Assembly (NCBI GenBank): GCA_020849655.1
Contig: JADLFU010000142.1
Location: 1-62,582, forward strand
Origin: Polyangiaceae bacterium
Lineage (GTDB): Bacteria; Myxococcota_A; Polyangia; Polyangiales; Polyangiaceae
Reading direction: 5' to 3'
DNA length: 62,582 bases
Part shown: positions 38,260 through 60,457 of the stretch, one piece after another
How the letters are laid out: every line of letters begins with the position of its first letter
Numbering within the stretch: position 1 is the first letter of the stretch
The notes under the pieces: generated by a model
The model's database searches: none
Seen by the model: only the letters and a program-made list of their open reading frames with translations
What the model was told of the DNA's origin: nothing
Position numbers and translations under genes: made by a program

Positions 38260-40048
38260 ATGCGAAATCGGTTGTCTCGTGCCTGCCTGATCGCCTCCCT
38301 CCTCACCGTCGGCCCCTCGGTCGCGGTGCTGTCCTACTCGCCCCTCGCGTCCGCGCAAGCCAAGCCCAAGCCCAAGAAGGACGACAAGAAAGCCGACAAG
38401 GACAAGAAAGCCGACAAGGGCGACAAGAAGGACGAGAAGGACGGGAAGCCCGTCGAGGTCGACCTCGACGAGGGCAGCCCCGACGCCAAGAAGTCCAAGG
38501 ACACGGGCCCCGTGACGGCCGGCCAGATGACCGAGGAGGCCGCGACCGCGAAGCGCCTCTTCGAGGGAGAGAAGTGGGCCGAGGCGGCGCTCGCGCTCTT
38601 CCGGGTCACGAAGGGCGAGACGGGCGACGACGAGGGAAACAAGCAGATCGCCCAGTACGATCTCGCGGTCTCCCTGTACCGGCTGCAGTTCTACCAGCAC
38701 TCGTACAGCATCTTCAGCGAGATCGCCGACCGGCCGAACCACCTGCGCTTCAACGAGACGCTGCTGTGGCTCGCGCGCCTCGCGACCACGCTCCCCGAGC
38801 CCGCCGACATCGTCGAGCGCATCGGCAAGTACTCGGCCGAGCAGGTCGGCCGCTTCAACAACGCGAAGCAGAACGACCTCTACTGGCAGCTCAACTACCT
38901 CCTCGGTCGGTACAAGTACCGAAACCGCCAGTACGAGGAGGCGATCCAGCTCTTCGAGAAGGTCGACAAGCGCAGCAAGTACTACGTGCAGGCGCAGTTC
39001 TTCAACGGCATCAGCTACGTGCAGCTGAAGAAGAGCGTCCCCGCCGTCACGGCCTTCACGCGCATCGTGCAGGCGGTGGACGACGGCGCGGAGGGCGTCG
39101 AGGACGAGCAGCGCATGCGCGACCTCGCGCACCTCTCGATGGCCCGCACCTACTACTCCGCGTCGGTGCGCCTCGACGAGAACAACCAGCCGACGATCGA
39201 CGAGAAGAAGCTCTCCGCGGCCGTCAAGTACTGGAACCGCGTCGACATCGCGAGCGAGTACTGGCTCGACGGGCTGTTCGAGGAGTCCTGGGCGTACTTC
39301 ATGGCCGGCGACTACCCGCGCGCGCTCGGCAACATTCACACGATCCAGGCGCCGTACTTCCCGCACAGCTTCTACCCCGAGGCGGAGATCCTGAAGGCCC
39401 AGATCTACTTCGCCACCTGCCAGTACGACCACGCGACGACGGTCGTCGCCAGGTTCAAGAAGAAGTACGAGCCGGTGCAGAAGGAGCTCGACACGATCCT
39501 CAAGGAGTTCGCGGACGAGGGCAAGGAGGAGCAGGCGTTCCAGTTCTTCCGCGAGGTCAAGAGCCAGAAGCGCTCGCTGCCCGCCAACGTGAAGCCCATC
39601 GTCGAGCTGGCGCTCTCCGACCGCGCGCTCCTGAAGCACCTCGAGTACGCGCGCGTCCTCGAGGAGGAGGAGGGTCGCTTCAAGAAGGCGCCGGCGAGCT
39701 TCCGCGACTCCGGGCTCGGCAACGAGGTGCGCGACGCGCTCGACCTCGCGAAGAGCGTCGCGGTGAAGAACGGCGGCAAGGAGGTGCGCGACCGCTACCA
39801 GCGCAACCTCGACGAGCTCAATGAGCACCTCCGCGACTCCGCGAAGATCCTCATCGACATCACGTCGGCCGAGCGCACGAAGCTCGAGTCCACCATCGAG
39901 AGCGGCAAGTTCACCCAGGAGGACGCCAAGGTGTTCGGCGTCGTCAAGCCCGACGAGGAGCACGTCATCTGGCCGTTCAACGGCGAGTTCTGGCGTGACG
40001 AGCTCGGGTTCTATCGGCAGGTCGTCGTCTCGAAGTGCGGGAGGTTAG
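38260..40048 (+). CDS. gltC: Periplasmic TPR protein GltC (expected stop lost by +1 indel)
   Basis: About 595 residues. A signal peptide (cleavage near LASAQ) is followed by a Lys/Asp-rich linker (about 35-80) and TPR-like helical repeats to about residue 520. The conserved end reads WPFNGEFWRDELGFYR. In M. xanthus GltC is a periplasmic TPR protein of the Glt gliding complex that works with outer-membrane barrels. Its place directly before gltD supports the name, although M. xanthus keeps gltC in a separate cluster. As read, the frame stays open to 40683 across the gltD start. Removing one G from GGG at 40038-40040 gives a TAG at 40046-40048, just before gltD, so I place the end there. Confidence 0.65.
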
Positions 40049-40051
40049 GTG

Positions 40052-43000
40052 ATGAAGAACACGACTCGTTTCGCAGTCTCCCTCGCGCTCGGCGCCTCGC
40101 TCGGCGCGGTGTCCACGACCGCCCTCGCGGCCGACGGGCCGATGTGCGTCAGCCAGGAGGCGCAGGACGCGCTCTCCAAGTGCGACGGCGTCGCGATGGG
40201 CTCGTTCGTCCCGAAGGGCGACAAGGTCGGCGTCAAGCCGCCCCAGGTCTCGACGGACGCGCAGGCCAAGAAGGACAACAAGCCCGGCGCCCCCGACCAG
40301 GCCATGGCCGCGGGCCAGCGCGACATCCGCCGCGCGTCGATGAAGGACAAGACGCAGAAGCTCCTCATCAGCGAGATCGCGCAGCTCGAGCAGCTGTGGA
40401 AGGCCACGAGCAAGAAGGCCTCCGACCGCCCGCAGCTCGCGCGCCGCCTCGCGGAGACCTACGTCGAGCTCGAGAACGCCGCCTTCCGCGAGAAGACGGA
40501 GGCCGACATCAAGAAGGACGCGGCCGCGGCCGCGAAGGCGAAGAAGACCCTCGACGGCGCCCGCGCGAGCGGCATCCGTTACTACAAGGTCATCGTCGAC
40601 GAGTACGGCGCCGACTACCCGCAGTTCGACGAGGTGCTGTACTACCTGGCCTACGAGTACGAGCAGGGCCAGATGCTCGATGACGCGCGCAAGGTGTACT
40701 TCCGCATCATCAGCGACACGCCGCAGTCCAAGTACATCCCCAACGCGTACCTCGCGTTCGGCGAGCTGTACTTCACCGAGGCGCAGGGCGACCCGAGCAA
40801 GTGGGAGCTCGCGCGGCAGTCGTACGCCAAGGTGCTCGAGTACGACCAGGCCACCAACAAGGTGTGGGGCTACGCGCAGTACAAGCTCGCGTACGTCTAC
40901 TGGAACATGGCCGAGAAGGACAAGCTCGCGCTCGCCCTCGAGGGCTTCAAGAAGGTCATCGAGTACTCGAAGAAGTTCGCGGCCAACGCGGGCATCCCGG
41001 CGCTCGGCAACAGCGCGCGCAAGGACATCGTCCCGGTCTACGCCCTCATCGGCAAGCCCGAGGGCGCGTACGGCTTCTTCAAGCCGCTGTCCGAGGACGG
41101 CTCCGACGCGAAGACGTACGACATGATGGACCAGCTGGGCCTCAACTACATCGACACCGGCCACTACGCCGAGGCCGTCGGCCTGTACGAGGATCTGCTG
41201 AAGCGCGACAAGGGCGAGAAGACCTGCCAGTACCAGGCGCACATCGTCTCGGCCACGCAGGCGATGAAGGGTGGGTCAAATAAACCTAACGTCCGCGCGA
41301 AGATGGACGACATGGTGAAGCGCCTGAAGGAGTACCGCACGGGCTCCTACAGCGAGGACGCCAAGCTGAAGTGCGCGAACGTGACCGCCGAGCTGCTCTA
41401 CGAGACGGGCGCGGCCTGGCAGATCGAGGCGCAGGGCTCCGGCGGCCAGCGCGGCACCGGCGACAAGAAGACGATGGCGCTCGCGGCCGAGCTCTACAAC
41501 CTCGTCGCGCTGAACTTCCAGAAGGAGGAGTTCGCGAAGTTCGAGTTCCCGCGCATCGTCAAGGATGACTGGCCTTCGCTCTTCAAGGTGAAGTACGCGA
41601 TGGCCGATCTGCTCTACTTCCAGGAGGACTGGGAGAAGTGCGGCCCTGCCTTCGACATGGTCGTCGAGGAGGATCCGCAGAGCAAGGAGGCGCCCGAGGC
41701 CGCGTACGCCGCCGTCCTCTGTTACCAGAAGCTCTACGACAAGCAGCACGCCGGCGGCTCCGCGAAGAAGGGCACCGGCAACCTGCCCGGCCAGAAGGAC
41801 AAGAAGGGCGCCGGCAAGGCCGACCCGAAGGCCGAGCTCGCGAAGAAGGAGCTGACGGCCCAGCAGAAGGGGATGACGAAGGCGTTCTCCCGCTACCTCT
41901 GCGTCGTGAAGCCCGAGGACGCGAAGGCGAAGGAGCAGTACGCCGAGGTGAAGTACGCGCGCGCCCGCACGTACTTCGAGGCGCACTACTGGGAGGAGTC
42001 CGCCGCGGCGTTCAAGGACATCGCGATGAACCACTCCGACCTCGACTCGGGGATCTACGCCGCGCAGCTGTACCTCGAGTCGCTCAACATCCTCGGCACG
42101 CACGCCGACCCGCCGCGGGCGTCCTGCTACGAGGAGATGGGCGAGAGCGTGCCGAAGTTCATCACGCTCTACTGCGACGGCGGCAAGGCCGCGAAGAACC
42201 CCGATCAGTGCGCGATGCTGACGTCGATCCAGATCGACATCCTCCGCCTGAAGGCCGAGGCGCTCCTGAAGGCCGCGCAGACGGCGACCACCAACTCCGC
42301 GCGCCAGTTCGAGGCGGCGGGCAACGCGTACCTCGAGCTCTGGAAGAAGTACGGCGAGGCGCCGATCGCGGCGGGCAAGAAGCCCGAGTACGCGAAGATG
42401 GACGAGGTGCTGTGGAACGCGGCCGAGGCGTTCCAGTCCGCGCACCTCGTGATGAAGAGCATCCAGGTGCGCCTCATCCTCCTCGACCCGAAGAACGGGT
42501 TCGAGAAGGGCGAGCTCGCGAAGAAGTCCGTCTACAAGATCGGCGGCAACTACCAGGCGATCGCCGTCTACGACGAGGCCGCCAAGTGGTACGAGCGCTA
42601 CGCGAAGGAGTTCACGAAGGCCGACAAGGCCGACGCGGCGCTCTCCGACGCCGTCGTGCTGCGCCTCGGCCTCGGTCAGGACTCCGAGGCCATCAAGGAC
42701 GCCGACGATTTCATGAAGCTCTACGGCAAGGCGAAGCCGGCGGAGACGGCGCGCGTCGCCTTCGCCATCGGCGCGCACTACGTCGAGCGCGAGGACTGGG
42801 ACAACGCGCGCAAGCGCCTGTCGGGCGCGATGGGCCTCATCGACAAGAGCGCGCCGCTCGACGTGCAGGTGCAGGCGCACGCGCTGCTCGGTCGCGTGAT
42901 GGTCCGCATCAAGAGCGACTCGGCGGCGGCCACCGAGTACAACAAGGTGAAGGCCCTCTGGTCGAACCCGAAGGCCGCGGCCGACAAGGTCACCGGCAGC

Positions 43001-43720
43001 GACGCCGACGGCGGCCTCCGCAAGCTCGCGAAGGCGCTCACGGCGGTCGGCGAGGCGTACTTCTACTTCGCCGAGAAGGAGAAGAAGAAGGTCGATGCCA
43101 TTCGGTTCCCCGACTACAAGGGCCCGAACGACAAGGAGAGCGTCCTCAAGCACATCAAGACGAAGGTCGCCGACTGGATCAAGAAGAAGGCGCCGGCGAT
43201 CGAGGCCGCCGAGAAGGAGTACCTGAAGATCGTCGAGCTCGAGCCCGCGCCGCCGCCGCGCTGGGTCATCGCCGCCGGCTCTCGCGTCGGGACGATGTGG
43301 GGAGAGTTCGTCCGCGAGTTCCGCGCGGCGCCCATCCCCGCCGAGATGAAGGCCGACGTCGAGCTGCGCCAGACCTACTACGCCGCCCTCGACGACGCCT
43401 CCGAGCCGCAGAAGGTGCGAGCGAAGCGCGCCTTCGAGACGTGCCTCGGGTACTCCGTCAAGTACCAGTACTTCGACGAGTACTCGCGCACCTGCGAGGT
43501 GTGGCTCTCGAAGACCTACAAGAACGAGTACCACAAGGTCGACGAGTACCGCGGCTCGCCCAACCGGCTCTCGAGCGGCCTCAGCGATCGCTCGTACCCG
43601 CTCGACACGAACGGCAAGCCCGTCAACCCGAACCCGGTGCTCGAGGCCGACAAGGCCGACGAGGCGGTCGACTCGAAGAAGTCCGAAGACAAGAAGGGCG
43701 CCGCTCCGGCGAAGAAGTGA
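40052..43720 (+). CDS. gltD: Large periplasmic TPR motility protein GltD (AgmU)
   Basis: 1222 residues from the ATG at 40052 (GGGAGG upstream), close to the roughly 1,200 residues of M. xanthus AgmU/GltD. The signal peptide MKNTTRFAVSLALGASLG is cleaved near ALAA. Almost the whole mature protein is TPR-like helical repeats rich in Tyr, Lys and Ala, with a Lys/Asp/Ala-rich insert near 570-600 (GNLPGQKDKKGAGKADPK) and a charged C-terminal tail. In M. xanthus it is part of the envelope-spanning gliding machinery. The gene is followed after 8 nt by gltE, the same order as in M. xanthus. Confidence 0.8.
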   Translation: MKNTTRFAVSLALGASLGAVSTTALAADGPMCVSQEAQDALSKCDGVAMGSFVPKGDKVGVKPPQVSTDAQAKKDNKPGAPDQAMAAGQRDIRRASMKDKTQKLLISEIAQLEQLWKATSKKASDRPQLARRLAETYVELENAAFREKTEADIKKDAAAAAKAKKTLDGARASGIRYYKVIVDEYGADYPQFDEVLYYLAYEYEQGQMLDDARKVYFRIISDTPQSKYIPNAYLAFGELYFTEAQGDPSKWELARQSYAKVLEYDQATNKVWGYAQYKLAYVYWNMAEKDKLALALEGFKKVIEYSKKFAANAGIPALGNSARKDIVPVYALIGKPEGAYGFFKPLSEDGSDAKTYDMMDQLGLNYIDTGHYAEAVGLYEDLLKRDKGEKTCQYQAHIVSATQAMKGGSNKPNVRAKMDDMVKRLKEYRTGSYSEDAKLKCANVTAELLYETGAAWQIEAQGSGGQRGTGDKKTMALAAELYNLVALNFQKEEFAKFEFPRIVKDDWPSLFKVKYAMADLLYFQEDWEKCGPAFDMVVEEDPQSKEAPEAAYAAVLCYQKLYDKQHAGGSAKKGTGNLPGQKDKKGAGKADPKAELAKKELTAQQKGMTKAFSRYLCVVKPEDAKAKEQYAEVKYARARTYFEAHYWEESAAAFKDIAMNHSDLDSGIYAAQLYLESLNILGTHADPPRASCYEEMGESVPKFITLYCDGGKAAKNPDQCAMLTSIQIDILRLKAEALLKAAQTATTNSARQFEAAGNAYLELWKKYGEAPIAAGKKPEYAKMDEVLWNAAEAFQSAHLVMKSIQVRLILLDPKNGFEKGELAKKSVYKIGGNYQAIAVYDEAAKWYERYAKEFTKADKADAALSDAVVLRLGLGQDSEAIKDADDFMKLYGKAKPAETARVAFAIGAHYVEREDWDNARKRLSGAMGLIDKSAPLDVQVQAHALLGRVMVRIKSDSAAATEYNKVKALWSNPKAAADKVTGSDADGGLRKLAKALTAVGEAYFYFAEKEKKKVDAIRFPDYKGPNDKESVLKHIKTKVADWIKKKAPAIEAAEKEYLKIVELEPAPPPRWVIAAGSRVGTMWGEFVREFRAAPIPAEMKADVELRQTYYAALDDASEPQKVRAKRAFETCLGYSVKYQYFDEYSRTCEVWLSKTYKNEYHKVDEYRGSPNRLSSGLSDRSYPLDTNGKPVNPNPVLEADKADEAVDSKKSEDKKGAAPAKK

Positions 43721-43728
43721 GGAAGGCC

Positions 43729-45201
43729 ATGAAGAAGAGCACCGCAAGCATCGCCCTCGTCACCCTCGCCGCGTTCGCGCTCACCGGCTGCGGGAAGAAG
43801 GAGCCCAACGTCCCCGGCGGCGGCAAGGGGGGCGCCCTCGGATCGGAGGGCGGCCCCGCCGTCGACTCGAAGACCCAGGCCGCGTTCGACAAGGCGCTCG
43901 AGGAGTTCATCGCCCACGAGCGCGCCAACGACTGGACCGACGCCGCCTGCGACGACATGGCGAAGAAGTTCCGCGCCGCGAACGACCAGGCGAAGGCCAC
44001 CTCCAAGGCAGACTTCGCGCCCGCGCTCTACAACGCCGGCCTCGCGAGCCAGCGCTGCAACAAGGACGCGGACGCGAAGAAGGCGTTCTCCGACGCGCTC
44101 GCGGCCGATCCGAAGTTCCACCGCGCGAAGGTGCAGATCGCTTTGTACGACTACAAGGCCGGCGGCGACGCCGCGCTCGAGCCGACGATCCAGGCGCTGC
44201 AGCAGGCGGTGCTCGACGCCGAGTTCCAGAGCCCGGACGCGCTCGTCAACCTCGCGATGCTCGAGATGAAGCGCGGCGGCTCGGGCGGCTGGCAGGGCTG
44301 CACGAACGACATGGAGTGCGCGAAGAAGAACATCGAGCGCGCGCTCGCCGTCGACGACGGCTACATGCCCGCCTTCAACCAGCTGGCCCTCTACTACCTC
44401 GCCCGCGCGAAGGAGAAGGTGGGCCGCAAGGACGCGAAGGTCACCGCCGGCCGCAAGAAGGAGAAGAAGATCGACCAGCAGCAGCTCGAGCTCGCGGCGC
44501 TGGTGTGCTCCCAGGCCATCCGCAAGAACCCCAAGTACGCGCCCATCCACAACACGGCGGGCATCATCCAGGTCGAGCTCGGCAACATCAACTCGGCCGT
44601 CGCCTCCTTCAAGACGGCGTCGCAGCTGGACGCGGGCTTCTTCGAGGCGCACATGAACTACGCCGCGGTCAACCTGTCCTTCCGCGGGTTCAAGCCCGCC
44701 GAGGACGCGTACCGCGCGGCGCTCAAGCTCCGCCCCAACGACTACGACGTGCGCCTCGGCCTGTCGCTCGCGATCCGCGGTCAGATCAACGATTCCAACT
44801 TCGACCAGTTCACGAAGGACGCCGAGGCCGAGCTCCTGAAGGCGAAGGAGATCGCGCCGGACCGCCCCGAGACCTACTTCAACCTCGGCGTCCTCACGCA
44901 GGAGTTCAAGGTCAAGGGCATCACGGGCGACGAGAAGGCGAAGATCCCGGTGTTCGACGCCGCGATCGCGCTCTTCAGGGAGTTCCAGACGAAGGCCGGC
45001 TCGAACCCCGAGTTCGCCGACGGCATCAAGCAGTCGAAGGAGCGCATCGAGGACATCGACGCCCTGAAGAAGTTCATCGTCGAGGGCATCAAGGCCGCCG
45101 AAGAGGCGCCTCCCGCGCTCGATCAGCCGGGAGGGCTCGAGGGCCCGAAGGACGGCGACCCGCCGCCCCCCGCCGGCGGCGACGCTGCGAAGCCCCAGTG
45201 A
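43729..45201 (+). CDS. gltE: TPR lipoprotein GltE (AglT)
   Basis: 490 residues from the ATG at 43729, with ribosome binding site GAGGAAGG. The signal peptide ends in FALTGC (lipobox). TPR repeats follow, e.g. PALYNAGLASQRCNKDADAK and PDRPETYFNLGVLTQEFK, ending in a Pro/Gly/Asp-rich tail. A basic loop (about 225-250, KKEKKIDQQQ) interrupts the array. M. xanthus AglT/GltE is a TPR lipoprotein needed for gliding and lies just after agmU, as here. A strong terminator follows the stop codon. Confidence 0.8.
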   Translation: MKKSTASIALVTLAAFALTGCGKKEPNVPGGGKGGALGSEGGPAVDSKTQAAFDKALEEFIAHERANDWTDAACDDMAKKFRAANDQAKATSKADFAPALYNAGLASQRCNKDADAKKAFSDALAADPKFHRAKVQIALYDYKAGGDAALEPTIQALQQAVLDAEFQSPDALVNLAMLEMKRGGSGGWQGCTNDMECAKKNIERALAVDDGYMPAFNQLALYYLARAKEKVGRKDAKVTAGRKKEKKIDQQQLELAALVCSQAIRKNPKYAPIHNTAGIIQVELGNINSAVASFKTASQLDAGFFEAHMNYAAVNLSFRGFKPAEDAYRAALKLRPNDYDVRLGLSLAIRGQINDSNFDQFTKDAEAELLKAKEIAPDRPETYFNLGVLTQEFKVKGITGDEKAKIPVFDAAIALFREFQTKAGSNPEFADGIKQSKERIEDIDALKKFIVEGIKAAEEAPPALDQPGGLEGPKDGDPPPPAGGDAAKPQ

Positions 45202-45212
45202 GGTGATGGCTG

Positions 45213-45252
45213 ACGAGCGACGGAGGATCTCTTCGTCGCTCGTTCGCTTTTT
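45213..45252 (+). terminator. Intrinsic terminator after gltE
   Basis: ACGAGCGACG (45213-45222) pairs perfectly with CGTCGCTCGT (45234-45243), followed by TCGC and a TTTTT run (45248-45252). It ends the gltC-gltD-gltE unit. Confidence 0.85.
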
Positions 45253-45306
45253 GTGACACGGGCCGGAACAATCCCCTGGCGGCGCTGTCGACACGCCCAC
45301 GTCAAC

Positions 45307-45323
45307 CGATTCCGAAAGAATCG
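45307..45323. promoter_or_regulatory. Palindromic site at the gltF promoter
   Basis: CGATTC (45307-45312) and GAATCG (45318-45323) form a perfect 6-5-6 inverted repeat. It lies 2 nt upstream of the -35 box, a normal position for an activator or repressor site. Confidence 0.4.
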
Positions 45324-45325
45324 CG

Positions 45326-45354
45326 TTGACGATCCCGGCCGACCGAAGTACACT
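45326..45354 (+). promoter_or_regulatory. Sigma-70-type promoter for gltF-gltG
   Basis: TTGACG (45326-45331), a 17-nt spacer and TACACT (45349-45354). The region to 45380 is unusually AT-rich. It lies downstream of the gltE terminator, so gltF and gltG probably have their own transcript. Confidence 0.6.
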
Positions 45355-45395
45355 GTTACTGTAATCTCATCGTCATTTTCCGAGGAGACTGAATC

Positions 45396-45665
45396 ATGAG
45401 CACCAAGAACATCCTCGTCGGTCTGGCCGCGATCTCGTTGTTCCTCGTCTCGTCCGTCGCCTCCGCGCAGAAGAAGGCGGACGCGAAGAGCTCGAAGGAA
45501 GCTGACGGCTACGGCTACGAGTTCTCTGACGATCCGCTCAGCGCGGGTGGCTTCGGGCCGAACGACGCGACCATCCGCGTCCGTCCCGGCGCCGTGCGCA
45601 CCACGCTCATCCGTCCGCGCACGTCGTTCGTGCCGGAGATGCTGAAGAGCGTCGAGAACCTCTGA
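45396..45665 (+). CDS. gltF: Small exported protein GltF
   Basis: 89 residues with a strong ribosome binding site (CGAGGAGA). The signal peptide is cleaved near ASAQ; a Lys/Asp/Ser-rich stretch precedes a conserved-looking core (YEFSDDPLSAGGFGPND and VRPGAVRTTLIRPRTSF) ending in MLKSVENL. In M. xanthus the gene between aglT and pglI is gltF, encoding a small exported component of the gliding complex. The name rests mainly on this position, size and export signal. Two small hairpins (45676-45691 and 45712-45725) lie in the 104-nt gap to gltG. Confidence 0.6.
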   Translation: MSTKNILVGLAAISLFLVSSVASAQKKADAKSSKEADGYGYEFSDDPLSAGGFGPNDATIRVRPGAVRTTLIRPRTSFVPEMLKSVENL

Positions 45666-45675
45666 GCCTCGGTTC

Positions 45676-45769: not shown

Positions 45770-47830
45770 ATGGAAAAGGCTAAGGTCTCGCTGACGTTCG
45801 GTATCTACGAGGGTGACGCGCTCTTGCGGCGGGAGACGATCACCCAGGACATCGTCAAGGTGGGCAAGGATCCGAAGAGCCACCTGCGCATCGACGACGA
45901 GCTCGCCTCGCGCATGCACGCGGTGATCGAGGTCGTGTCGACCGACGACATCACGCTCATCGACCTCGGCAACGAGCCCGGCACGAAGGTCAACGGCGCC
46001 AACGTCAACAAGTGCAAGATCAAGGCGGGCGACCAGATCGAGATCGGCGGCACGCGGATCTTGCTCGAGGTCGCCGAGGCGGTGAGCGCGGCGGCCGCGC
46101 GCCCGTCCGCGCCGCAGGGGCAGCCCGCTCCCGCGGCCCCTTCCACGAACCCCTTCGCGGCGCCCGCCCCCGCGGCGCCGTCCGCGAACCCCTTCGCCGC
46201 CCCCTCCGGGAACCCGTTCGCGGCCAACCCGTTCGCGGCGCCCGCGGCCGCGGCGAACCCCTTCGGCGCGCCGTCGGCGCCGGTCGCCCTCGCGCCCGAT
46301 CCCTTCGGCGATCCCGACAAGCCCGCCGCGCCGGGGACGTACGCGATGATCAAGGCCGGCCCGGACGTCAACTCCGACGAGGTCGAGGACCACGGCAAGC
46401 CCGCGGTCGAGGTCATGGTGATGTGGGACACCACCGTGCTCCACTGCGAGCACCTCTCGCCTCCGCGGTCCTTCTACGTGGGCGAGGAGGAGGGGAAGAA
46501 CTTCAAGTGTGACTTCTTCATCCCGAGCGAGAAGCTGAACTCGACCCGCGCGCCGGTGCTCCTCGCGAGCGGCGCGACCGCCTACGCGGTGCTCTTGCCC
46601 CGCGCGAAGGGCACGATCGAGATGCCGGGTCAAGAGAAAATGACGATCCAGGAGGCGATCGACACGGGCAGGGCGCAGCCGTGCCCCGAGATGTCGGGGG
46701 CCCACCAGATCGCGCTGAAGGCCGGCGCCCGCGTCCGCGTCGAGGTGGACGGCCTGGTGTTCCAGACGAGCGCCGTGTCCGCCGGCCGCAAGATCCCTGT
46801 GCCGCTCATCGCCGCGGCGTCGCTGTCGGTCTTCATGTTCGTCGGGATGTCGTTCCTCGTGCACGCGGGCATGCTCGCGGGCTTCGCGTTCTTCAAGCCG
46901 AAGATGTCCGGCGCGGACGACGAGGAGAACCGCAAGGAGCAGCAGATCCTGATGCAGCAGTTCCTGAAGGCGGCCGCCGAGCGCGAGCAGGAGGAGAAGC
47001 CGCCGGAGGACGTCACGACGCCGCAGGCCGACAACAAGGAGGGCGGCACGGGCACCCGCGCGAAGGGCGACGAGGGCTCGATGGGCAACCCCAACACCTC
47101 CGCGACGAACAAGCGCTACGCCGTCCAGGGCCCGAAGGACAACCCCGATCCCCACATCGCGCGGCAGGCTGCGCTGCGTGAGGCGGCCGAGTTCGGCATC
47201 ATCGGCCTCCTGAACACCGGCGCTGCGGGCGATCCCAACGCGCCGACCGCGCCGTGGGGCCGCGACGACTCGCAGGGCACCGACGCGCTCAGCGCGCGGG
47301 GCAACATGTGGGGCGCGGACATCGGCGAGGCGTTCGGCGCCGGCGGCCTGGGTCTGTCGGGCATCGGCGAGGGCGGCGGCGGTCGCGGCGAGGGCATCGG
47401 CCTCGGGTCGATCGGCACCCTCGGCCACGGCTCGGGCACGGGCTCCGGCTCGGGCTTCGGGTCCGGGCACGGGCGCCTCGGCGGCGATCACAAGGCGAAG
47501 CCGCCGCAGGTGCGCATGGGCGCGACGACGGTGAGCGGGCGCCTCCCCGCCGAGGTCATCCAGCGCATCGTCCGGCAGAACTTCGGTCGCTTCCGTCTCT
47601 GCTACGAGAACGGCCTGAAGAACAACCCGTCGCTCGCCGGGCGCGTGTCCGTGCGCTTCGTCATCGGTCGCGACGGAGCCGTGGCGAACGTGGGCAACGG
47701 CGGGTCGGATCTGCCGGACTCGGCGGTCGTGAGCTGCGTCGTCCGCTCGTTCTCCGGGCTCTCGTTCCCGCAGCCCGAGGGCGGCATCGTGACGGTCGTC
47801 TACCCGATCTCCTTCTCGCCGGGCGGCTGA
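45770..47830 (+). CDS. gltG: FHA-TM-TonB-C motility protein GltG (PglI)
   Basis: 686 residues. An FHA domain (about 25-100) has VGKDPKSHLRI, SRMHA and GTKVNG, so phosphothreonine binding is plausible. A linker carries repeated NPFAAP units (about 115-185), then an unassigned domain, one TM helix (about 344-372), a charged linker, a Gly-rich segment (about 520-570), and a C-terminal AgmX/PglI domain (about 580-686, with RLCYENGLKNN and VVSCVVRSF). This is the exact architecture of M. xanthus PglI/GltG, an inner-membrane Glt component whose periplasmic domain reaches toward the outer membrane. An FHA domain at the cytoplasmic side invites control by the Ser/Thr kinases of the cell. Confidence 0.85.
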   Translation: MEKAKVSLTFGIYEGDALLRRETITQDIVKVGKDPKSHLRIDDELASRMHAVIEVVSTDDITLIDLGNEPGTKVNGANVNKCKIKAGDQIEIGGTRILLEVAEAVSAAAARPSAPQGQPAPAAPSTNPFAAPAPAAPSANPFAAPSGNPFAANPFAAPAAAANPFGAPSAPVALAPDPFGDPDKPAAPGTYAMIKAGPDVNSDEVEDHGKPAVEVMVMWDTTVLHCEHLSPPRSFYVGEEEGKNFKCDFFIPSEKLNSTRAPVLLASGATAYAVLLPRAKGTIEMPGQEKMTIQEAIDTGRAQPCPEMSGAHQIALKAGARVRVEVDGLVFQTSAVSAGRKIPVPLIAAASLSVFMFVGMSFLVHAGMLAGFAFFKPKMSGADDEENRKEQQILMQQFLKAAAEREQEEKPPEDVTTPQADNKEGGTGTRAKGDEGSMGNPNTSATNKRYAVQGPKDNPDPHIARQAALREAAEFGIIGLLNTGAAGDPNAPTAPWGRDDSQGTDALSARGNMWGADIGEAFGAGGLGLSGIGEGGGGRGEGIGLGSIGTLGHGSGTGSGSGFGSGHGRLGGDHKAKPPQVRMGATTVSGRLPAEVIQRIVRQNFGRFRLCYENGLKNNPSLAGRVSVRFVIGRDGAVANVGNGGSDLPDSAVVSCVVRSFSGLSFPQPEGGIVTVVYPISFSPGG

Positions 47831-47849: not shown

Positions 47850-47886
47850 GACGCGCCGGGAGCACGCTCCCGGCGCGTCCGCTTTT
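47850..47886 (+). terminator. Intrinsic terminator after gltG
   Basis: GACGCGCCGGGAGC (47850-47863) is perfectly complementary to GCTCCCGGCGCGTC (47866-47879), and CGCTTTT follows. A very stable hairpin, so transcription of gltF-gltG should stop here. Confidence 0.85.
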
Positions 47887-52100: not shown

Positions 52101-55100
52101 AGGCCACCGACGCGGAGCTCATCGATCTCAAGTACCGCCTCGGCCGCACGCTCGAGCAGCACATGAGCGATCCGTCGGGCGCGCTTGGCAACTACCGCGA
52201 GATCCTCTCGCTCGACGCCTCTCACGAGGGCGCTCGCTCGGCGCTCGAGGCGCTGCTCGCGCACGCGGAGCTCGCCCCCGAGGCGGCGTCCATCCTCGAG
52301 CCGATCTACGAGGCGCGTGAGGAGTGGGAGAAGCTGATCCAGGCGCTCGAGATCCTCGCGAAGCACGAGGGTGACGTCGACGCGCGCGTGGGCCTGCTGC
52401 GCAAGGTGGCGCGCACGGCGGCCGGATGCCTCGGCGATCTCGGCCGGGCGTTCGACTCGTCCGCGCGGGCGCTGAAGGACGACCCGGCCAGCACGGAGTC
52501 TCGCGGCGAGCTCGAGAACTGGGCGCGCCAGGCGAACGCGTGGGACAAGCTCGACGCGGTGCTGTTCGAGATCGCGCAGGGCCTCGCGGACCCGACGCTG
52601 GCGCGCGAGTACTGGCTGCGGCTCGGCCGCATCAACGAGCACCTCGAGCGCATCGACGCGGCCGCGGAGCGCTACGGCCAGGTGCTCGCGCTCGATCCGA
52701 ACGACGCGGAGGGCCTCGCCGCGCTCGACGCGCTCTACCGCCGCACGGAGCGTTGGACCGATCTCGTCAGCGTGTTCCGCCGCCGCATCGAGCTGACCGG
52801 CGACACGCGAGAGCGCGAGGAGCTCTACGGCCAGATGGCCGCCGTCTACGAGGAGAAGCTCGCGCAGCCCGATCAGGCGATCGCGGCGTACCGGGAGGTG
52901 CTGTCGAGCGACGAGACGAGCCAGGTCGCGCTGACGGCGCTCGACGCGCTGTTCACGCGGCAGAGCATGTGGGCCGAGCTCGCCGACAACCTCGAGGCGC
53001 AGCTGCGCCTCGCGGACGCGGACGACGCGCAGCTCGGGTTCATGCTGCGCCTCGCCGATCTGCGCGAGACGCGGATGAGCCAGACGGAGATGGCGATCGA
53101 CATCCACCGGCAGGTGCTCGATCGCGATCCGGCGAACGCGCAGGCGCTCGCGGCGCTCGAGCGGCTCGGGAAGGACGAGCGCCACGAGGTCGACATCGCC
53201 GAGATCCTCGAGCCGCTGTACAGGCAGTCCGGCGATTTCGCGAAGCTGATCGGCGTGCACGAGGTGCAGGTGCGCCGCAGCGACACGCCGAGCCGCCAGG
53301 TCGAGCTGTTGCACCAGGTCGCGCAGCTCCACGAGGACGCCGCCGGCGATCTGAACGCCGCGTTCGACACGCTCGCGCGCGCGCTCGCGGTCGATCCGTC
53401 CGCGCCCGACACGATCGCGGGGCTCGACAGGCTCGCGCGCGCGACGGGGCGGTTCCAGGACCTCGCCGGCGTCTACGAGTCGCTCGCCGACAAGCAGGAG
53501 GATCCCGCCGTCGGCACCGCGCTCTTCGCGATGAGCGCGCGCGTGTACGAGTCCGACCTCGGCAACGTCGAGAGCGCGGTCGCGCACTACCGCAAGGTGC
53601 TCTCGATCGATCCGGTGAACCTCGACGCCGCAGAGAGCCTCGAGCGCCTGTTCCGCCAGACGGAGCGCTACGCCGACCTCGGGCTCATCCTGCAGCGCAA
53701 GGCGGAGATCGTCGACGACGTCGACCAGAAGAAGAACGCGCTCTACCAGGCCGCCTCCATCGAGGAGGACGTGCTCTCGCGCCCCGACCCGGCGATCGCG
53801 GTCTACGGCAAGGTGCTCGAGATCGACCCCGAGGACATGCGCAGCATCGACGCCTTGATCAAGCTCTACCTGTCGCTGTCGCGCTGGGAGGAGCTGCTCG
53901 GCGTCTACACGAAGAAGGTCGATCTCGTCTCCGACCCGGACGAGAAGAAGCGCATCTACTACGAGGAGGGCGCCGTCTACGAGCGCGAGCTCTCCGACGT
54001 CGCGCGCGCGACCGACGTCTACCAGCGCGTGCTCGAGCTCGACCCGGACGATCTCGTCGCGCTGGGGCGCCTCGACGTCCTGTACCAGGCGTCGAAGAAC
54101 TGGCCCGAGCTGCTCGCCGTGCTCCAGCACGAGGCCGAGCTCTGCAACGATCCGGCCGAGGGGATCTCGTACCAGTACCGCATCGCGGAGCTCTACGAGA
54201 AGCACCTCGGCGATCCGAACCGCGCCGTCGAGCTGTACCGCGAGATCCTGCAGCAGGCGCCCGACCACGAACCGACGCTCGCGGCGCTCGAGGGGCTGAA
54301 GACCACCGCCGAGGATCCGCTGCCCGCCGCGCTCGTGCTCGAGCCGGTCTACGAGGCCTCGGGCGACTGGGCCAAGCTCATCAGCGCCCTCGATGTGCAG
54401 GTCAAGCACGCGGACGATCCGTACCGGAAGGTCGAGCTGCTGCACCGCATCGCGCGGCTCTACGAGGACAGCCTCGGCGATCTGAAGAACGCGTTCCAGA
54501 CCTACGCGCTCGCGCTGCCCATCGAGAACTCGAACGAGGACACGCTCCTGTCGCTCGAGCGGATCGGCGCGGCGATCGAGCAGTGGGTGAGCGTCGCGCG
54601 GCTGTACGACGTCGAGCTCGACCGCCTCGCCGACACGCCCGAGCGCCTCGTCGAGCTCGGGCTGCGCGTGGCGCAGATCTACGAGGTACAGATCGAGGAC
54701 GTCGACTCCGCGGTCGCGCGCTACCGGCGCGTGCTCGCCGCCGATCCCGAGAACCAGAGCGCCGTCCGCGCGCTCGATCGCCTCTTCTCGATGACCGAGC
54801 GCTGGGCCGACCTCGCCGAGGTGCTCGGGCGCGAGGCGGAGATCGGGCAGTCGCCCGACGAGATCCTGGAGTTCAAGTACCGCCTCGGTCAGCTGCGTCA
54901 GCTGCGCCTCCAGGACGTGCCCGGCGCGATCGCCGCGTACCGCGAGATCCTCGGCGCGGCGCCCGAGCACGAGCAGACGCTCGCCGCCCTCGAGGGCCTG
55001 TTCGCCGGGGGCGTGAGCCAGGTGGAGATCGGCGAGACGCTGGAGCCGCTCTACCAGGCCGCGGGCGAGTGGGAGAAGCTGCTGAAGGTCCACGAGGCGC

Positions 55101-58100
55101 AGCTCGCGCACCTGACCGACGGAGCCGATCGGCTCGCGATGTACTACCGCATCGCCGAGCTCGGCGAGGAGAAGCTGCTCGACGCTGCGGCCGCGCTCGA
55201 CGTCTACGTCCGCGCGCTGAAGGAGGCCCCGCTCGACGAGAAATCGGGCGAAGAGGCCGAGCGCCTCGCAGGCGCCGTCGACGGCGGCTGGGAGCGCGTC
55301 GCGAACGCGTACGCCGACATCACCGGCGTCAGCCAGGACGACGCGACGCTCGCGGCCATCGGCAAGCGCCTCGCGCGCGTGTTCGAGGAGGAGCTCGGGG
55401 ACGTCGCGAGGGCGGAGGACACGTACCGCTACGTGCTCGGCGTCCGCGCGCTCGACGTCGAGGCGCTGTCGAACCTCGACCGCATCTCGCTCGCACAGGA
55501 GAAGTGGCCCGAGCTCGCCGAGGTGCTCGAGCAGCGCGTGAAGGCGACCGAGGACGCGCCGGACCTCGTCGACCTCTACGCGCGCCTCGGCGAGACGTAC
55601 GAGGAGAAGCTCGCGAAGCCCGACGACGCCATCCGCGCGTACCGCCGGATCTTCGACGAGCTCGACAAGCAGCACGAGCCGGCCATCGCCGCGCTCGAGC
55701 GCCTCTACGAGCAGAAGGGCGCGCACGCCGAGCTCCTGGGCGTCCACGAGCGTCAGCTCGAGAACGCCGTCGGCGACGTCGAGGAGGCCGACGTCCGCGC
55801 GAAGATGGCCCGCCTGCTCGCCGAGAAGCTCGGCCAGGTGACCCGGGCGATCGACACGTGGAAGCGCGTGCTCGACGTGCGCGGCGAGGATCCCGAGGCG
55901 CTCGCCGGCCTCGCGGATCTCTACGAGCGCGAGCAGCTCTGGGCGGAGTTCTGCGACGTGCTCGACCGCCAAGCGTACATCGCCCCCGACGACGACGTCC
56001 GCGTCTCGGCGCTGACCCGCCGCGCGCGCACGTTCACCGAGAAGCTCGGCCGCGACGACCAGGCCCTCGAGGACTGGACCCGCGTGCTCGAGGTCGACTA
56101 CGCGAACGTCGACGCCTTGCGCGCGATCGCCGAGATCCGGCGCAAGCAGGGCGACGCGAACGAGCTCGTGCTCGCGCTGCACCAGATCATCGAGCGCGCC
56201 GCCGCGGCCATCGAGGCCGACGAGCAGAAGGCCGTGTTCCGCGAGCTCGGCAAGACGTACGGCGAGACGCTCGCGCAGCCGTACGACGCCGCCGACGCGT
56301 GGACGAAGCTCCTCGAGGTCGACCCGTCGGACTTCGAGGCGATGAACGCGCTCGAGGCCATCTACCGCGCCGACGAGCGCTGGCAGGACGTCGTCAACGT
56401 CAAGCTCCAGCGCGCCGACGCGCTCGAGGACCCGGCGGAGAAGGTCCGCGAGCTGCTCGAGGTCGCGGGGCTCTGGGAGCACAACCTGGAGGATCGCGAC
56501 GGCGGTCGGCTCGCGTTCGAGAAGATCCTCGGCATCGACGCGACGCACGACCAGGCGTTCCTCGCGCTCGAGGAGCTGCACACGGTGGCGGGGCGCTGGG
56601 AGCCCTTGATCGAGCTCTACCTCGGGCGGCTCGACACCCGTGAGGAGGTCGCCGAGAAGAGCGATCTGCTGCGCAAGATCGCGCGCGTGTTCGAGGAGAA
56701 GCTCAACGACAAGGGCCAGGCGTTCGACGCCTTGCTCAACGCGTTCGCCGAGGACTTCGAGGACGACGAGACGTCGCGGTACCTCGAGCGCATGGCGCAG
56801 GCGACCGGGCGCTGGGGCGAGCTGCTCCAGAACGCGAACACCTGGGTGCAGCAGCAGGCCGATCGCCGCGCGAAGATCACGCTCTACCTGCGCCTCGGCA
56901 AGTGGTACGGCGAGGATCTCGGCCGCGCCGACTACGCGCAGGCGAACTTCGCCGAGGTCGTCAAGCTCGACCCGAACAACGTCGCCGTCCTGCGGCAGAG
57001 CGCGAGCCTCTTCAAGAAGAACGCGCAGTGGCAGCAGGCGGGCCAGATGCTGATGCGCGCGAAGGACGTCGCCGTCATCGACACCGATCGCAAGACGGTG
57101 CTGACCGATCTCGGCGATCTGCTGTTCCACAACATGGGGCAGCCCGACCAGGCGCTCGGGTACTACAAGCAGGCGCTCGACGTCGACCCGCACTACGTGC
57201 CGGCGCTCGACTCGCTCGAGAAGTTCTACTCCGAGCGCGACATGAACGAGGACCTCGCGAGGACGCTCTCGCAGAAGGTGTTCGGCCTGAGCGATCCCGA
57301 GAAGATCTCCCACACGAAGCTGCGCGCGGCGGGTCTCTACGAGGCGAAGCTCGGCAAGGCCGAGGACGCCGCGCGGCTCTACAAGGAGGTGCTCGACGCC
57401 GACGCCTCGAACCTCACCGCGATGCGCGGCCTCGAGCGCACCTACGCGGCGCTCGGCCAGTGGCAGGAGTACGTCGGCGTGCTCGAGATCCAGCTCGACG
57501 TCGTGCCGAGCGAGCGCGAGCGCATCGAGACGCTCTTCAAGATCGCCTCCGTGATGGAGGAGCAGTTCCTGAAGGCCGACGTGCAGGCGCAGCGGCTCGA
57601 GCAGGTCATCGAGATCGACCCGAACCACGAGCCGTCGCTCGAGGGCCTCGCGCGCGCCTACGGGCGGCTGCGCCAGTGGCACGATCTCATCAACACGTAC
57701 GAGCGTCACATCCAGGCCACGCTCGACCGGCAGAAGAAGGTCGAGCTCTACGGCAAGATCGCGCTCGTCTACGCGGACGAGGTCGCCGACGTCGACCACG
57801 CGATCGACGCGTACCGCAACATCGTCGACCTCGACGAGTCGAACGTCCCCGCGCTCGAGGCGCTCGGCAAGCTGTACGAGAAGCAGGGCGACATCGCGTC
57901 GTCGATCGACTTCATGACCCGCGTCGCCGACCTGACGGGCGACGGCGCGCAGCGCGTGGAGATGTACTACCGCATCGGCAAGGCGCTCGACGAGAAGCTC
58001 GGCGATCGCGGGCAGGCCGAGCAGCGCTACGAGATGGCGCTCGACCTCGACCCGTCGCACCTGCCGACGCTGGCGGCGCTGCGGCAGATCGCGATCGACT

Positions 58101-60457
58101 CGGCCGACTGGGATCGCGCGGCCCGCTACCTCGATCAGGAGCAGATGAACACGCCGACGCCGCGCGTGCGCGCCAAGCTCCTCGTCGAGCTCGGCAAGCT
58201 GCGCGACGAGATGCTCGGCGAGCACGAGCTCGCGGTGCAGGCGTACGAGCTCGCGCTGCAGGCGGACGGCGACAGCGAGGAGGCCGCGCTCCCGCTGATG
58301 GACGAGTACTTCACGCAGGGCAGGTTCGCCGAGGCCGAGCCGCTCGCCGACATGCTCGTGAAGAAGGCCGGCAAGCGCGACCGAGGCGAGCAGCACCGCC
58401 TGTGGAACACCGCGGCCAAGATCGCGGCGGCGAACGGCAACGACGAGAAGGCGCTGAAGTCGTACCAGCAGGCGCTCCAGCTCGATCTCACCGACCAGGA
58501 GACCATCCGCGGCCTCGCGGACGTCAACTTCCGCCTGAAGGACTGGGCGGGCGCGCTCACCAACTTCCAGAAGGTGCTGACGTCGCTCGGCGAGGAGGAG
58601 GTCGACGCGCGCGCGGAGGTCTACTTCAAGCTCGGGTGCATCAAGCGCGAGCAGGGCCAGGCGAAGCAGGCGATCAACAACTTCGAGAAGGCGCTCGGCG
58701 TCGTCAGCGGCCACCGAGACACGCTCGAGGCGCTCGTCAGCATCTACGGCGACGTCAAGGACTGGAAGCAGGTCGCCGAGTACAAGCGCCAGATCCTCGA
58801 CAACGTGATGGACGGCGACGAGCGGTTCAACATCCTGCTCGAGATCGCCGACGTCTGGGAGAAGAGCGAGAAGAACCTCGCGAAGGCCGTCGAGGCGCTC
58901 GAGGAGGCGAAGGATCTCCGCCCCGACGACCAGAAGCTGCTCAACCGCCTGCTGCCGCTCTATCAGGGCACGCAGAACTTCGGGAAGATGATCGACACGA
59001 TCCAGGAGATCGAGTCGCTCGACACCGATCCGCTCCGCAAGAGCCGCTACAAGTTCACGCTCGGCCAGCTCTACCGCGACTTCGAGAAGGACACGGGCAA
59101 GGCGATCGAGATGTTCAACGAGGCGCTCGATCTGAACCCCGACAACTTCGAGCCCTTCGTCCGCATCGAGAAGATCTACGCGGCCGACAAGGACTGGAAG
59201 GGCCTCGAGCGCGCGTACCGCAAGATGCTGTTCCGCGTGAAGGACCGCGGCGCGAACGACGTCGAGTACGGGCTCGCGCACGCGCTCGGGCTCATCTACC
59301 GCGACCGCCTGAAGGATCCGGCGCAGGCGATCGAGGCGTTCAAGCTCGCCTTGTCGAAGAAGGACGAGCTGGTCGAGCGCCAGATCCTCGCCGAGCTGTT
59401 CGAGCTGAACGGCCAGATCGAGGAGGCCGTCGAGCAGCAGGAGGAGATGCTGAAGCGCGACGCGACGCGGGTCGAGCCGTACCGCGCGCTCTACCGCCTC
59501 TACCTCACGAAGCAGGCCTACGACGAGGCGTGGTGCATGTCGGCGGCGCTGGCGTTCCTCCGCAAGGCGGACGAGGAGGAGAAGCAGTTCTACGCGGACT
59601 ACAAGCCGCAGGATCTGCCCAAGGTCAAGGCGAAGCTCGACCACAACGCGTGGGTGCGCGGCCTCTTCCACGAGGACGTGATGAACCCCATCTCGAAGAT
59701 CTTCGAGGCGCTCGCGAGCGCCGCGCTCGCCGCGAAGTACGACGATCTGAAGCGCCAGAACAAGCTGCCGAACCTCGATCCGAAGTTCAAGCAGGACCCG
59801 GCGTCCTCGACGGTGACCTTCGCGAAGACCTTCGGCTGGGCGGCGCAGGTGCTCTCCATCCCGAACGTGCCGCAGCTCTTCGTCCGCAGCGACATCGCGG
59901 GCGGCGTCGCGCACGCGGTCGCGGTGCCCCCGGCGGTCGTCGCGGGGCAGGGCGTGCTCTCGGGCGCGCAGCCGATCGATCTGATGTTCGTCTGCGGCAG
60001 GACGCTGTCGATGTACCGGACGGAGTTCTTCATCAAGACGATCTTCGGGACGCAGACCGAGCTCGAGATCCTGCTGTACGCGGGCATCAAGATCGCGCGG
60101 CCCGACTTCGCGCTGCCCCCGGCGCAGGCGGGGCAGGTGATGCCCGTCGCGCAGGTGCTCGCGTCGAAGATGGCGCCGGCCCACGTCGACGCGCTGAAGA
60201 GCGCCGTGAAGGCGTTCTTCGACCAGGGCGCGAAGGCGAACCTGAAGAAGTGGATCCACGGCGTCGATCTCACCTCGGCGCGGGCCGGGCTCGTGCTCTG
60301 CGGCGACCTCGAGGTCGCGCGCAAGGTGCTGCAGCAAGAGCCCCAGGCGCCCGGGGATCTGTCGGCCGCCGAGAAGGTGAAGGAGCTGCTGACGTTCAGC
60401 GTGTCGGCGAAGTACTTCGCGCTCCGCAAGCAGATCGGCGTCGCGATCGGCGCCTGA
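49136..60457 (+). CDS. gltI: Giant TPR scaffold GltI (AgmK)
   Basis: 3773 residues, close to M. xanthus AgmK (about 3,800). No signal peptide or TM, so cytoplasmic. Nearly the whole chain is tandem TPR-like helical repeats of the form 'LYxxxxxWxELxxVLxRxxE...DPxxxxALxALxxLY', in dozens of copies. A Pro/Ala/Glu linker (about 370-440, EPTPPPPV repeats) splits a short N-terminal block from the main array. The last 300 residues (from about 3470) form a different, mixed alpha/beta domain with DLMFVCGRTLSMYRTEFF. In M. xanthus GltI is a cytoplasmic part of the gliding complex. The sense frame contains no TTA, CTA or TCA codon, which leaves an equally long open frame on the other strand. Confidence 0.88.
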   Translation: MDLAERLNLLEANRDWQGLVEELERAVASEGNAAEKAKLLLQLGRVQSQKLLQSAKGLKLFQDAFKASPQLVEALAEARGVYWSLGKLNMVQKLLEMELKVAGEGAQAPALLVELGDVISDGGDYDGAAQRYAKALGASGGSLDDARERLEDSQATDGTWQERIALLLRAANDATTASDRAALFVRAARVARRFAPSEVEGLLAKAYAADPSDRAAAALYEGLLTDAQRTADLASEQATVLGALEGHQKAVAALHVGSRWITRHQNLENAARFLEVSLAAEPSEAAFAFFREVWGTKDGNWEKVAALADSAAERSTGSLRLFFVGQSAVVQWRQVGNLIRARQLFTALAAEAPEHPSVKAFELQIGESLSAAPAPAAVAEPTPPPPVAAAEPPPPPPVAEPTPAPAAVAEPTPPPPVVEAAAAAPAPSVPPAAGSEGEIAKLRADLAKQEGAKRYNEYVKTLVALAHAVPDDAEKIELLGKAAEMYVTRFANHSEAVKVYESLLELDAEHGAGTKYLTEQYEKRRDWEKLLGLQRREAERLPPGGAKLTRFLEMARLASERVRKPEVNIELWKTVLDADDGNAEALHNLASLYEKAREFEPLVRVLERQVETTHDNANRAAILTKLAQHYGDKLNDDEGAVRAWRALLALDPNDRRAQEALKKKYLALGKWDDLEVFYAESGKWDEFIRVLESQEAKETEAAAKIGMLMKIAELWADKKQKADRAAKSYEKVLDLDPQHLAAAEALIPIYQHAQNAKGLATAIEVKLAHEQDPFDRLELFREVAALYETKLKDGAKAFDRYLSAFGISAGDDTCREDAERLAKATGRWDDLITAYRGAIADADTNAERDLGIALRLRLGRILVDEVGRVDDALAEFRAVYDADNENLDAITALERLYRQTKKFDELLSIYDKKRELATSFEDKRETLFGIARLYESELSDTAKAIATYNAVLEEDPADAAALRALDKLFGETSAWTEYVDVLRRRIELEATDAELIDLKYRLGRTLEQHMSDPSGALGNYREILSLDASHEGARSALEALLAHAELAPEAASILEPIYEAREEWEKLIQALEILAKHEGDVDARVGLLRKVARTAAGCLGDLGRAFDSSARALKDDPASTESRGELENWARQANAWDKLDAVLFEIAQGLADPTLAREYWLRLGRINEHLERIDAAAERYGQVLALDPNDAEGLAALDALYRRTERWTDLVSVFRRRIELTGDTREREELYGQMAAVYEEKLAQPDQAIAAYREVLSSDETSQVALTALDALFTRQSMWAELADNLEAQLRLADADDAQLGFMLRLADLRETRMSQTEMAIDIHRQVLDRDPANAQALAALERLGKDERHEVDIAEILEPLYRQSGDFAKLIGVHEVQVRRSDTPSRQVELLHQVAQLHEDAAGDLNAAFDTLARALAVDPSAPDTIAGLDRLARATGRFQDLAGVYESLADKQEDPAVGTALFAMSARVYESDLGNVESAVAHYRKVLSIDPVNLDAAESLERLFRQTERYADLGLILQRKAEIVDDVDQKKNALYQAASIEEDVLSRPDPAIAVYGKVLEIDPEDMRSIDALIKLYLSLSRWEELLGVYTKKVDLVSDPDEKKRIYYEEGAVYERELSDVARATDVYQRVLELDPDDLVALGRLDVLYQASKNWPELLAVLQHEAELCNDPAEGISYQYRIAELYEKHLGDPNRAVELYREILQQAPDHEPTLAALEGLKTTAEDPLPAALVLEPVYEASGDWAKLISALDVQVKHADDPYRKVELLHRIARLYEDSLGDLKNAFQTYALALPIENSNEDTLLSLERIGAAIEQWVSVARLYDVELDRLADTPERLVELGLRVAQIYEVQIEDVDSAVARYRRVLAADPENQSAVRALDRLFSMTERWADLAEVLGREAEIGQSPDEILEFKYRLGQLRQLRLQDVPGAIAAYREILGAAPEHEQTLAALEGLFAGGVSQVEIGETLEPLYQAAGEWEKLLKVHEAQLAHLTDGADRLAMYYRIAELGEEKLLDAAAALDVYVRALKEAPLDEKSGEEAERLAGAVDGGWERVANAYADITGVSQDDATLAAIGKRLARVFEEELGDVARAEDTYRYVLGVRALDVEALSNLDRISLAQEKWPELAEVLEQRVKATEDAPDLVDLYARLGETYEEKLAKPDDAIRAYRRIFDELDKQHEPAIAALERLYEQKGAHAELLGVHERQLENAVGDVEEADVRAKMARLLAEKLGQVTRAIDTWKRVLDVRGEDPEALAGLADLYEREQLWAEFCDVLDRQAYIAPDDDVRVSALTRRARTFTEKLGRDDQALEDWTRVLEVDYANVDALRAIAEIRRKQGDANELVLALHQIIERAAAAIEADEQKAVFRELGKTYGETLAQPYDAADAWTKLLEVDPSDFEAMNALEAIYRADERWQDVVNVKLQRADALEDPAEKVRELLEVAGLWEHNLEDRDGGRLAFEKILGIDATHDQAFLALEELHTVAGRWEPLIELYLGRLDTREEVAEKSDLLRKIARVFEEKLNDKGQAFDALLNAFAEDFEDDETSRYLERMAQATGRWGELLQNANTWVQQQADRRAKITLYLRLGKWYGEDLGRADYAQANFAEVVKLDPNNVAVLRQSASLFKKNAQWQQAGQMLMRAKDVAVIDTDRKTVLTDLGDLLFHNMGQPDQALGYYKQALDVDPHYVPALDSLEKFYSERDMNEDLARTLSQKVFGLSDPEKISHTKLRAAGLYEAKLGKAEDAARLYKEVLDADASNLTAMRGLERTYAALGQWQEYVGVLEIQLDVVPSERERIETLFKIASVMEEQFLKADVQAQRLEQVIEIDPNHEPSLEGLARAYGRLRQWHDLINTYERHIQATLDRQKKVELYGKIALVYADEVADVDHAIDAYRNIVDLDESNVPALEALGKLYEKQGDIASSIDFMTRVADLTGDGAQRVEMYYRIGKALDEKLGDRGQAEQRYEMALDLDPSHLPTLAALRQIAIDSADWDRAARYLDQEQMNTPTPRVRAKLLVELGKLRDEMLGEHELAVQAYELALQADGDSEEAALPLMDEYFTQGRFAEAEPLADMLVKKAGKRDRGEQHRLWNTAAKIAAANGNDEKALKSYQQALQLDLTDQETIRGLADVNFRLKDWAGALTNFQKVLTSLGEEEVDARAEVYFKLGCIKREQGQAKQAINNFEKALGVVSGHRDTLEALVSIYGDVKDWKQVAEYKRQILDNVMDGDERFNILLEIADVWEKSEKNLAKAVEALEEAKDLRPDDQKLLNRLLPLYQGTQNFGKMIDTIQEIESLDTDPLRKSRYKFTLGQLYRDFEKDTGKAIEMFNEALDLNPDNFEPFVRIEKIYAADKDWKGLERAYRKMLFRVKDRGANDVEYGLAHALGLIYRDRLKDPAQAIEAFKLALSKKDELVERQILAELFELNGQIEEAVEQQEEMLKRDATRVEPYRALYRLYLTKQAYDEAWCMSAALAFLRKADEEEKQFYADYKPQDLPKVKAKLDHNAWVRGLFHEDVMNPISKIFEALASAALAAKYDDLKRQNKLPNLDPKFKQDPASSTVTFAKTFGWAAQVLSIPNVPQLFVRSDIAGGVAHAVAVPPAVVAGQGVLSGAQPIDLMFVCGRTLSMYRTEFFIKTIFGTQTELEILLYAGIKIARPDFALPPAQAGQVMPVAQVLASKMAPAHVDALKSAVKAFFDQGAKANLKKWIHGVDLTSARAGLVLCGDLEVARKVLQQEPQAPGDLSAAEKVKELLTFSVSAKYFALRKQIGVAIGA

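Follow-up and report, generated by a model that had tools for sequence, protein, structure and literature searches.

The gltC-to-gltI locus described here probably constitutes the trans-envelope part of an Agl–Glt surface motor and would correspond, in Polyangia, to the Myxococcus xanthus gliding machine, as judged from sequence comparison. Agl–Glt gliding is understood almost solely from M. xanthus; the present locus belongs to a separate lineage (type I, the window type), which is compared below with the M. xanthus-type gliding Glt (type II). The counterpart reading is backed by NCBIfam matches, a shared gene order, a phylogenetic position as sister of gliding Glt, the mutually exclusive distribution of the two types, a CglC homologue, an outer-membrane barrel pair, AglRQS genes and a GltJ candidate. 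The window, that is, the whole stretch of DNA analysed (62,582 nucleotides), corresponds to the complete contig C142; the metagenome-assembled genome to which it belongs comprises 307 contigs totalling 6.56 Mb, with a completeness of 96.9%.

The gltC-to-gltI run and its partner genes

All seven genes of the run, gltC-gltD-gltE-gltF-gltG-TPR lipoprotein-gltI, were confirmed at 38260-60457, where an earlier note on this DNA had placed them; all are encoded on the + strand. The unit is larger than that run, adding a GltK/CglC-like gene and a gltB/gltA-type pair. The features are as follows:

22420-23613, + strand: gltB-type outer-membrane beta-barrel gene (TIGR04565 83.8 bits, over cut-off; gltB profile 68 bits)
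23610-24551, + strand: gltA-type outer-membrane beta-barrel gene (TIGR04565 56 bits, slightly below cut-off; gltA profile 46 bits)
36942-37913, − strand: GltK/CglC-like cysteine-rich lipoprotein gene, divergent from gltC (hhalign 97.1% against M. xanthus-type GltK)
38103-38132, + strand: promoter-like site 5' of gltC (consensus scan only: 2 sites against 0.4 expected)
38260 to about 40041 (ORF open to 40683), + strand: gltC (NF033756, GltC, 1.3e-79)
40052-43720, + strand: gltD, periplasmic TPR protein (gltD profile 1225 bits)
43729-45201, + strand: gltE, TPR lipoprotein (NF033758 5e-17; lipobox LTGC)
45396-45665, + strand: gltF/cglF, 89 aa with signal peptide (NF033764, CglF = GltF, 1.8e-4)
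45770-47830, + strand: gltG, with FHA domain, membrane helix and periplasmic TonB-like tail (NF033760 2.4e-97, NF033768 1.2e-23, PF00498)
48143-49048, + strand: TPR lipoprotein gene (tprL) in the gltH slot (conserved gltG/gltI interval, 34/38 type I loci)
49136-60457, + strand: gltI-like gene for a giant TPR protein of 3773 aa without signal peptide (profile and relatives)

GltC, GltE, CglF (= GltF) and GltG were named independently by NCBIfam, all four under the strict equivalog cut-offs, and the gltD and gltI profiles built here, when applied to loci of M. xanthus and Anaeromyxobacter, identified these genes at the positions expected from the gene order. The top M. xanthus BLASTP match of the window GltD is GltD, over 1128 columns; the profile matching the window gltI also picks M. 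xanthus GltI (1237 bits), and the gltI-like gene shares about 60% identity with the downstream gene of relatives. M. xanthus GltF is likewise 89 aa long (PMC3169522). Signal peptides in GltC, GltD and GltF and lipoboxes in GltE and the TPR protein were read from the sequence. The genes 3' of gltI are unrelated, and the contig ends 2.1 kb beyond; gltJ is thus not beside gltI, as had been observed earlier.

At the gltC stop (40030-40055), relatives read KCGR-TAG and the window KCGR-TTAG, with one additional base, because of which the gltC ORF stays open as far as 40683 and overlaps gltD in a different frame. The earlier description of gltC as fused to the D-E-F-G order holds as adjacency only; the extra base may be a sequencing error or real. 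Terminator-like hairpins occur after gltE (45212-45244) and gltG (47850-47879), with a promoter-like site at 45326-45354; together they suggest putative transcription units CDE, FG and TPR-I.

The cysteine-rich lipoprotein gene upstream represents a diverged GltK/CglC homologue, transcribed away from the gltC operon. A profile of its family, run against 12,121 ORFs, ranked its own family first and GltK next among the matches listed; with NF033754 (gliding_CglC) one family member matches weakly (E 9e-4) and the window protein lies below reach. The M. xanthus gene cglC (= gltK) likewise points away from gltBAC, and its product is required to insert GltA and GltB into the outer membrane (PMC4488436). 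A late acquisition of gltK has been proposed (PMC3169522); that type I and type II each have a CglC relative suggests instead an older origin of CglC/GltK.

The barrel pair lies 13.7 kb from gltC and is thus non-adjacent. Matches to TIGR04565 are confined in M. xanthus to GltA, GltB, NfsA, NfsB and a single third-cluster protein, and in Anaeromyxobacter oryzae to GltB and GltA; in the genome studied here, 22420-24551 is the sole pair. It is preceded by an ftsY-like gene, the same block occurs upstream of the cluster in relatives, and in genomes G103, G341 and G357, too, such a pair precedes the type I cluster. HEAT-like and HAMP genes at 35178-36848, 5' of the divergent promoter, show conserved synteny in the majority of Polyangiales loci and may be part of the Glt system.

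The remaining motor parts were sought elsewhere in the genome, where the earlier note had proposed looking for gltK and aglRQS; a diverged homologue of the former is the gene at 36942-37913, and the latter lies on contig C223. Two AglRQS-like trios were detected, on C223 and C257. AglR of the first (C223:2319-4162) shares 55% identity with M. xanthus AglR of the 245/162/194-aa trio, the lengths given for aglRQS in PMC3169522 (245, 162 and 194 residues), whereas the C257 trio matches the second M. xanthus trio; by its best AglR match, the C223 trio is the AglRQS orthologue. The best GltJ candidate, on C109, has a zinc ribbon, a GYF-like region and an AgmX tail (77.7 bits against a cut-off of 450). 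A GltJ-like gene in the window (1723-3258, − strand) encodes an MJ0042 zinc ribbon, a GYF-like region and a weak AgmX tail (NF033761 72.8 bits); because of that weak tail the C109 protein was preferred.

Gene order across the phylum and the GltH slot

To survey gene order, all ORFs in 20-kb stretches around GltC matches were searched with profiles in 39 genomes spread over the phylum, and named genomes (M. xanthus AM003, Archangium, Corallococcus, Anaeromyxobacter and others) were added for comparison; the M. xanthus reference is a draft with its Glt loci spread over separate contigs. The order C-D-G-TPR lipoprotein-I was found on one strand in 34 of 38 loci, and every E and F that was called in them lay in the D/G interval; these loci were picked non-randomly for family coverage, so that the count is a tally rather than a frequency estimate, and two G002 loci, which group elsewhere in the tree, were excluded. 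The shared order occurs in Polyangiales, in other orders and in distant families. The four exceptions (L064, L074, L079 and L090) keep C-D-E-F-G, and no adjoining TPR lipoprotein-I pair was found in them. Since the identical order recurs in dozens of other genomes, the seven-gene arrangement is beyond chance. The earlier note had named a lack of synteny in other Polyangia as an outcome that would speak against it; the synteny is shared.

That note had also called the order rearranged. It does differ from that of M. xanthus, where K(−)-B-A-C stands separately (L120) and D-E, then F-G-H-(561 aa)-I-J, lie on other draft contigs, an arrangement that the note had given in agreement with Table 1 of PMC3169522. 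Yet the window order is seen phylum-wide, gltBAC stands alone in Myxococcaceae-type loci only, and Anaeromyxobacter, which belongs to the M. xanthus clade, has C beside D; in A. oryzae the genes form a single run, K(−)-B-A-C-D-E-F-G-H-I-J. A derivation of the window order from the M. xanthus order is contradicted by the survey and is very improbable; the comparison is to be reversed, M. xanthus being the split case. In other phyla gltC, D, E and G are linked together with aglRQS, they are grouped in Anaeromyxobacter, and the linkage of the core gltC-D-E-G has been described as ancestral (PMC3169522). Because of this linkage in other phyla and in Anaeromyxobacter, the arrangement with gltC next to gltD-G is taken as the older one. 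That the contiguous gltC-gltI order, the commonest in the phylum, is ancestral, one of the two options raised in the earlier note, is well supported and, for the core linkage, already published.

GltH (= CglE by model identity) was undetected in the genome with its own profile or with NF033755; its absence from the usual place, noted before, thus extends to the whole genome by two independent models. In four other window-type genomes, weak and distant GltH matches occur elsewhere (30-37 bits; cut-off 70). The TPR lipoprotein occupies the gltG/gltI interval, where M. xanthus-type loci carry gltH, and this position suggests that it may stand in for GltH. Its AlphaFold model (pLDDT 92.9) is a TPR superhelix, and a fold search returned generic TPR superhelices with no specific lead, so that the fold is uninformative on function. 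As a copy of GltE or Tgl it was rejected, the matches being weak (18 bits) and the fold generic. Locus L069, from G002 on a deep branch of the gliding-type clade, also carries the TPR lipoprotein, which suggests an ancestral lipoprotein and a later arrival of gltH; G002 additionally has a gltH relative on a different contig. It is conceivable, and we propose it tentatively, that, apart from the Myxococcus and Anaeromyxobacter lineages, most Myxococcota have a GltH-free Glt machine with the TPR lipoprotein in GltH's outer-membrane role, and that the M. xanthus machine is derived, its gain of GltH having been followed by the dispersal of its genes.

Phylogenetic position of the cluster

A tree built from concatenated GltC, GltD, GltE and GltG (58 rows; LG+G4, quick search, with some long branches flagged) resolved four groups, each with branch support of at least 97: type I (27 rows), type II with M. 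xanthus gliding Glt (13), Nfs (4) and a third type (14). With the third type as root, SH-aLRT support was 100 for the type I clade, 99 for type II with M. xanthus Glt and 100 for the two joined, with Nfs outside. The main split of a GltC-only tree agrees with that of the concatenated tree. The window cluster is therefore sister to the M. xanthus Glt clade and not nested within it, and so falls outside type II; the core set of the broad Agl–Glt machinery (GltC, D, E and G) is complete in it. The earlier suggestion of a variant machinery is supported insofar as this is a sister lineage, GltH-free and with a TPR lipoprotein instead.

An identity as the Nfs (sporulation) machine of the type I lineage would accord with the arrangement of the parts in a single run, as in nfs, and with GltD, GltE and GltF being about equally Nfs-like. 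Pairwise scores do not separate Glt from Nfs for these three proteins, which were placed by the tree; among best M. xanthus matches, the expectation that the Glt proteins would come first is borne out for GltG (226 bits for gliding GltG against 130 for NfsG) and likewise for GltC, and stays undecided pairwise for D, E and F. The AU test rejected both Nfs with gliding Glt (p 0.00017) and Nfs with the window type (p 0.00016), so that the cluster does not join the NfsC, D, E, G clade; moreover, no NfsH was found in the genome, the cluster includes GltI and has a CglC relative, and A/B are non-adjacent. Tree and AU test together reject an Nfs-type identity, which we regard as most improbable, and favour kinship with gliding Glt.

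Among 17 window-type genomes no gliding-type GltC was found, and among 12 gliding-type genomes no window-type GltC (scores and tree-placed copies); types I and II are thus mutually exclusive in the examined genomes, which fits orthology better than paralogy. In the cited Glt literature we found no mention of a type I lineage, of a CglC homologue in it or of the TPR/GltH alternation.

Proposed machine and known systems

In the machine that we propose, the proton-driven AglRQS motor (contig C223) would push the inner-membrane GltG, and force would pass from GltG via periplasmic GltC, D, E and F to the outer-membrane GltA/GltB barrels. The CglC-like lipoprotein would assist barrel insertion, the giant GltI would act from the cytoplasm, and the TPR lipoprotein would fill GltH's outer-membrane role wholly or partly. 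By analogy, the output is most likely gliding or other directed movement of surface material; the motor-to-barrel force path and CglC-assisted insertion have been shown only in M. xanthus. Several findings count against the counterpart reading: GltH is missing though essential in M. xanthus, GltC and GltG fall short of the gliding equivalog cut-offs, D, E and F have no pairwise Glt preference over Nfs, GltA/B lie 13.7 kb off, and the tree model is simple with long branches.

Type I might instead be an ancient Glt relative with another job, such as surface polysaccharide transport or the building of an envelope layer. Nfs demonstrates that Glt-type complexes can perform different functions while using the same motor (PMC3858216), the core complex is present in bacteria not known to glide (PMC3169522), and GltH, essential for M. 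xanthus gliding, is absent here. However, type I has relatives of CglC, GltF and GltI, whereas nfs is without counterparts of GltI, J and K (PMC3169522); it is sister to gliding Glt rather than to Nfs, and it is the sole Glt-type cluster found in the genome besides the divergent third type. We consider such another job unlikely and retain the gliding counterpart as the preferred reading.

With M. xanthus Glt (G1 gltD-J, G2 gltK-B-A-C; AglRQS motor; PMC3169522, PMC4488436) the present system shares gltC, D, E, F, G and I, the divergent CglC/GltK relative, one GltA/GltB-type pair and the AglRQS orthologue. It differs in that C-D-E-F-G-I are contiguous, A/B lie 13.7 kb upstream and J elsewhere, the locus is GltH-free with the TPR lipoprotein at the gltG/gltI interval, and the proteins form a sister clade at about 24-33% identity. 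In Anaeromyxobacter, as in the window, gltC adjoins gltD-E-F-G, gltI is in the run and K is divergent; unlike in the window, B-A lie immediately 5' of C, H is at the G/I interval, J follows I and the genes belong to the M. xanthus-type clade. Nfs of M. xanthus (G3) is likewise a single run (A-B-C-D-E-F-G-H) with the same motor (PMC3858216), yet it forms a separate clade, lacks GltI, J and K (PMC3169522) and has the NfsH that is absent here. The Group B core complex (Geobacter, gammaproteobacteria, Fibrobacter; PMC3169522) also links gltC, D, E and G; by its published description aglRQS is in the cluster and Group A genes are missing, whereas the genome studied here encodes its motor on a contig apart from the cluster and has F, I, A/B and the K relative.

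If type I drives gliding, the machine does not universally include GltH, CglC/GltK arose earlier than was proposed in 2011 and the TPR lipoprotein becomes a candidate machine component. Type I would also provide a cleaner criterion for likely glider genomes.

Other Glt-type genes were met during the survey. Two lone GltC-like proteins in family f5 genomes (L239:13403-15862 and L240:3431-5386) each lie by a sigma-factor-like gene, with no gltD or gltE profile matches around them. A GltG paralogue without an FHA domain (G000:C55:32088-33524; L029:8083-9576) is 55% identical to residues 203-685 of the window GltG, and C91 has a GltG-type segment (64%) within a 1507-residue ORF. L234-L238 (families f33 and f43) carry second clusters of unusual arrangement, ordered A/B-C-D-E-F, with a GltJ-like gene at GltG's place and a downstream TPR gene in some. 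A second Glt-type cluster, of the third type and with GltC-, D- and E-like genes, was found at L027:6869-15748 (G000:C64); third-type clusters also occur in Archangium (L196) and many other genomes, and may be the M. xanthus G4/G5 clusters of unassigned role.
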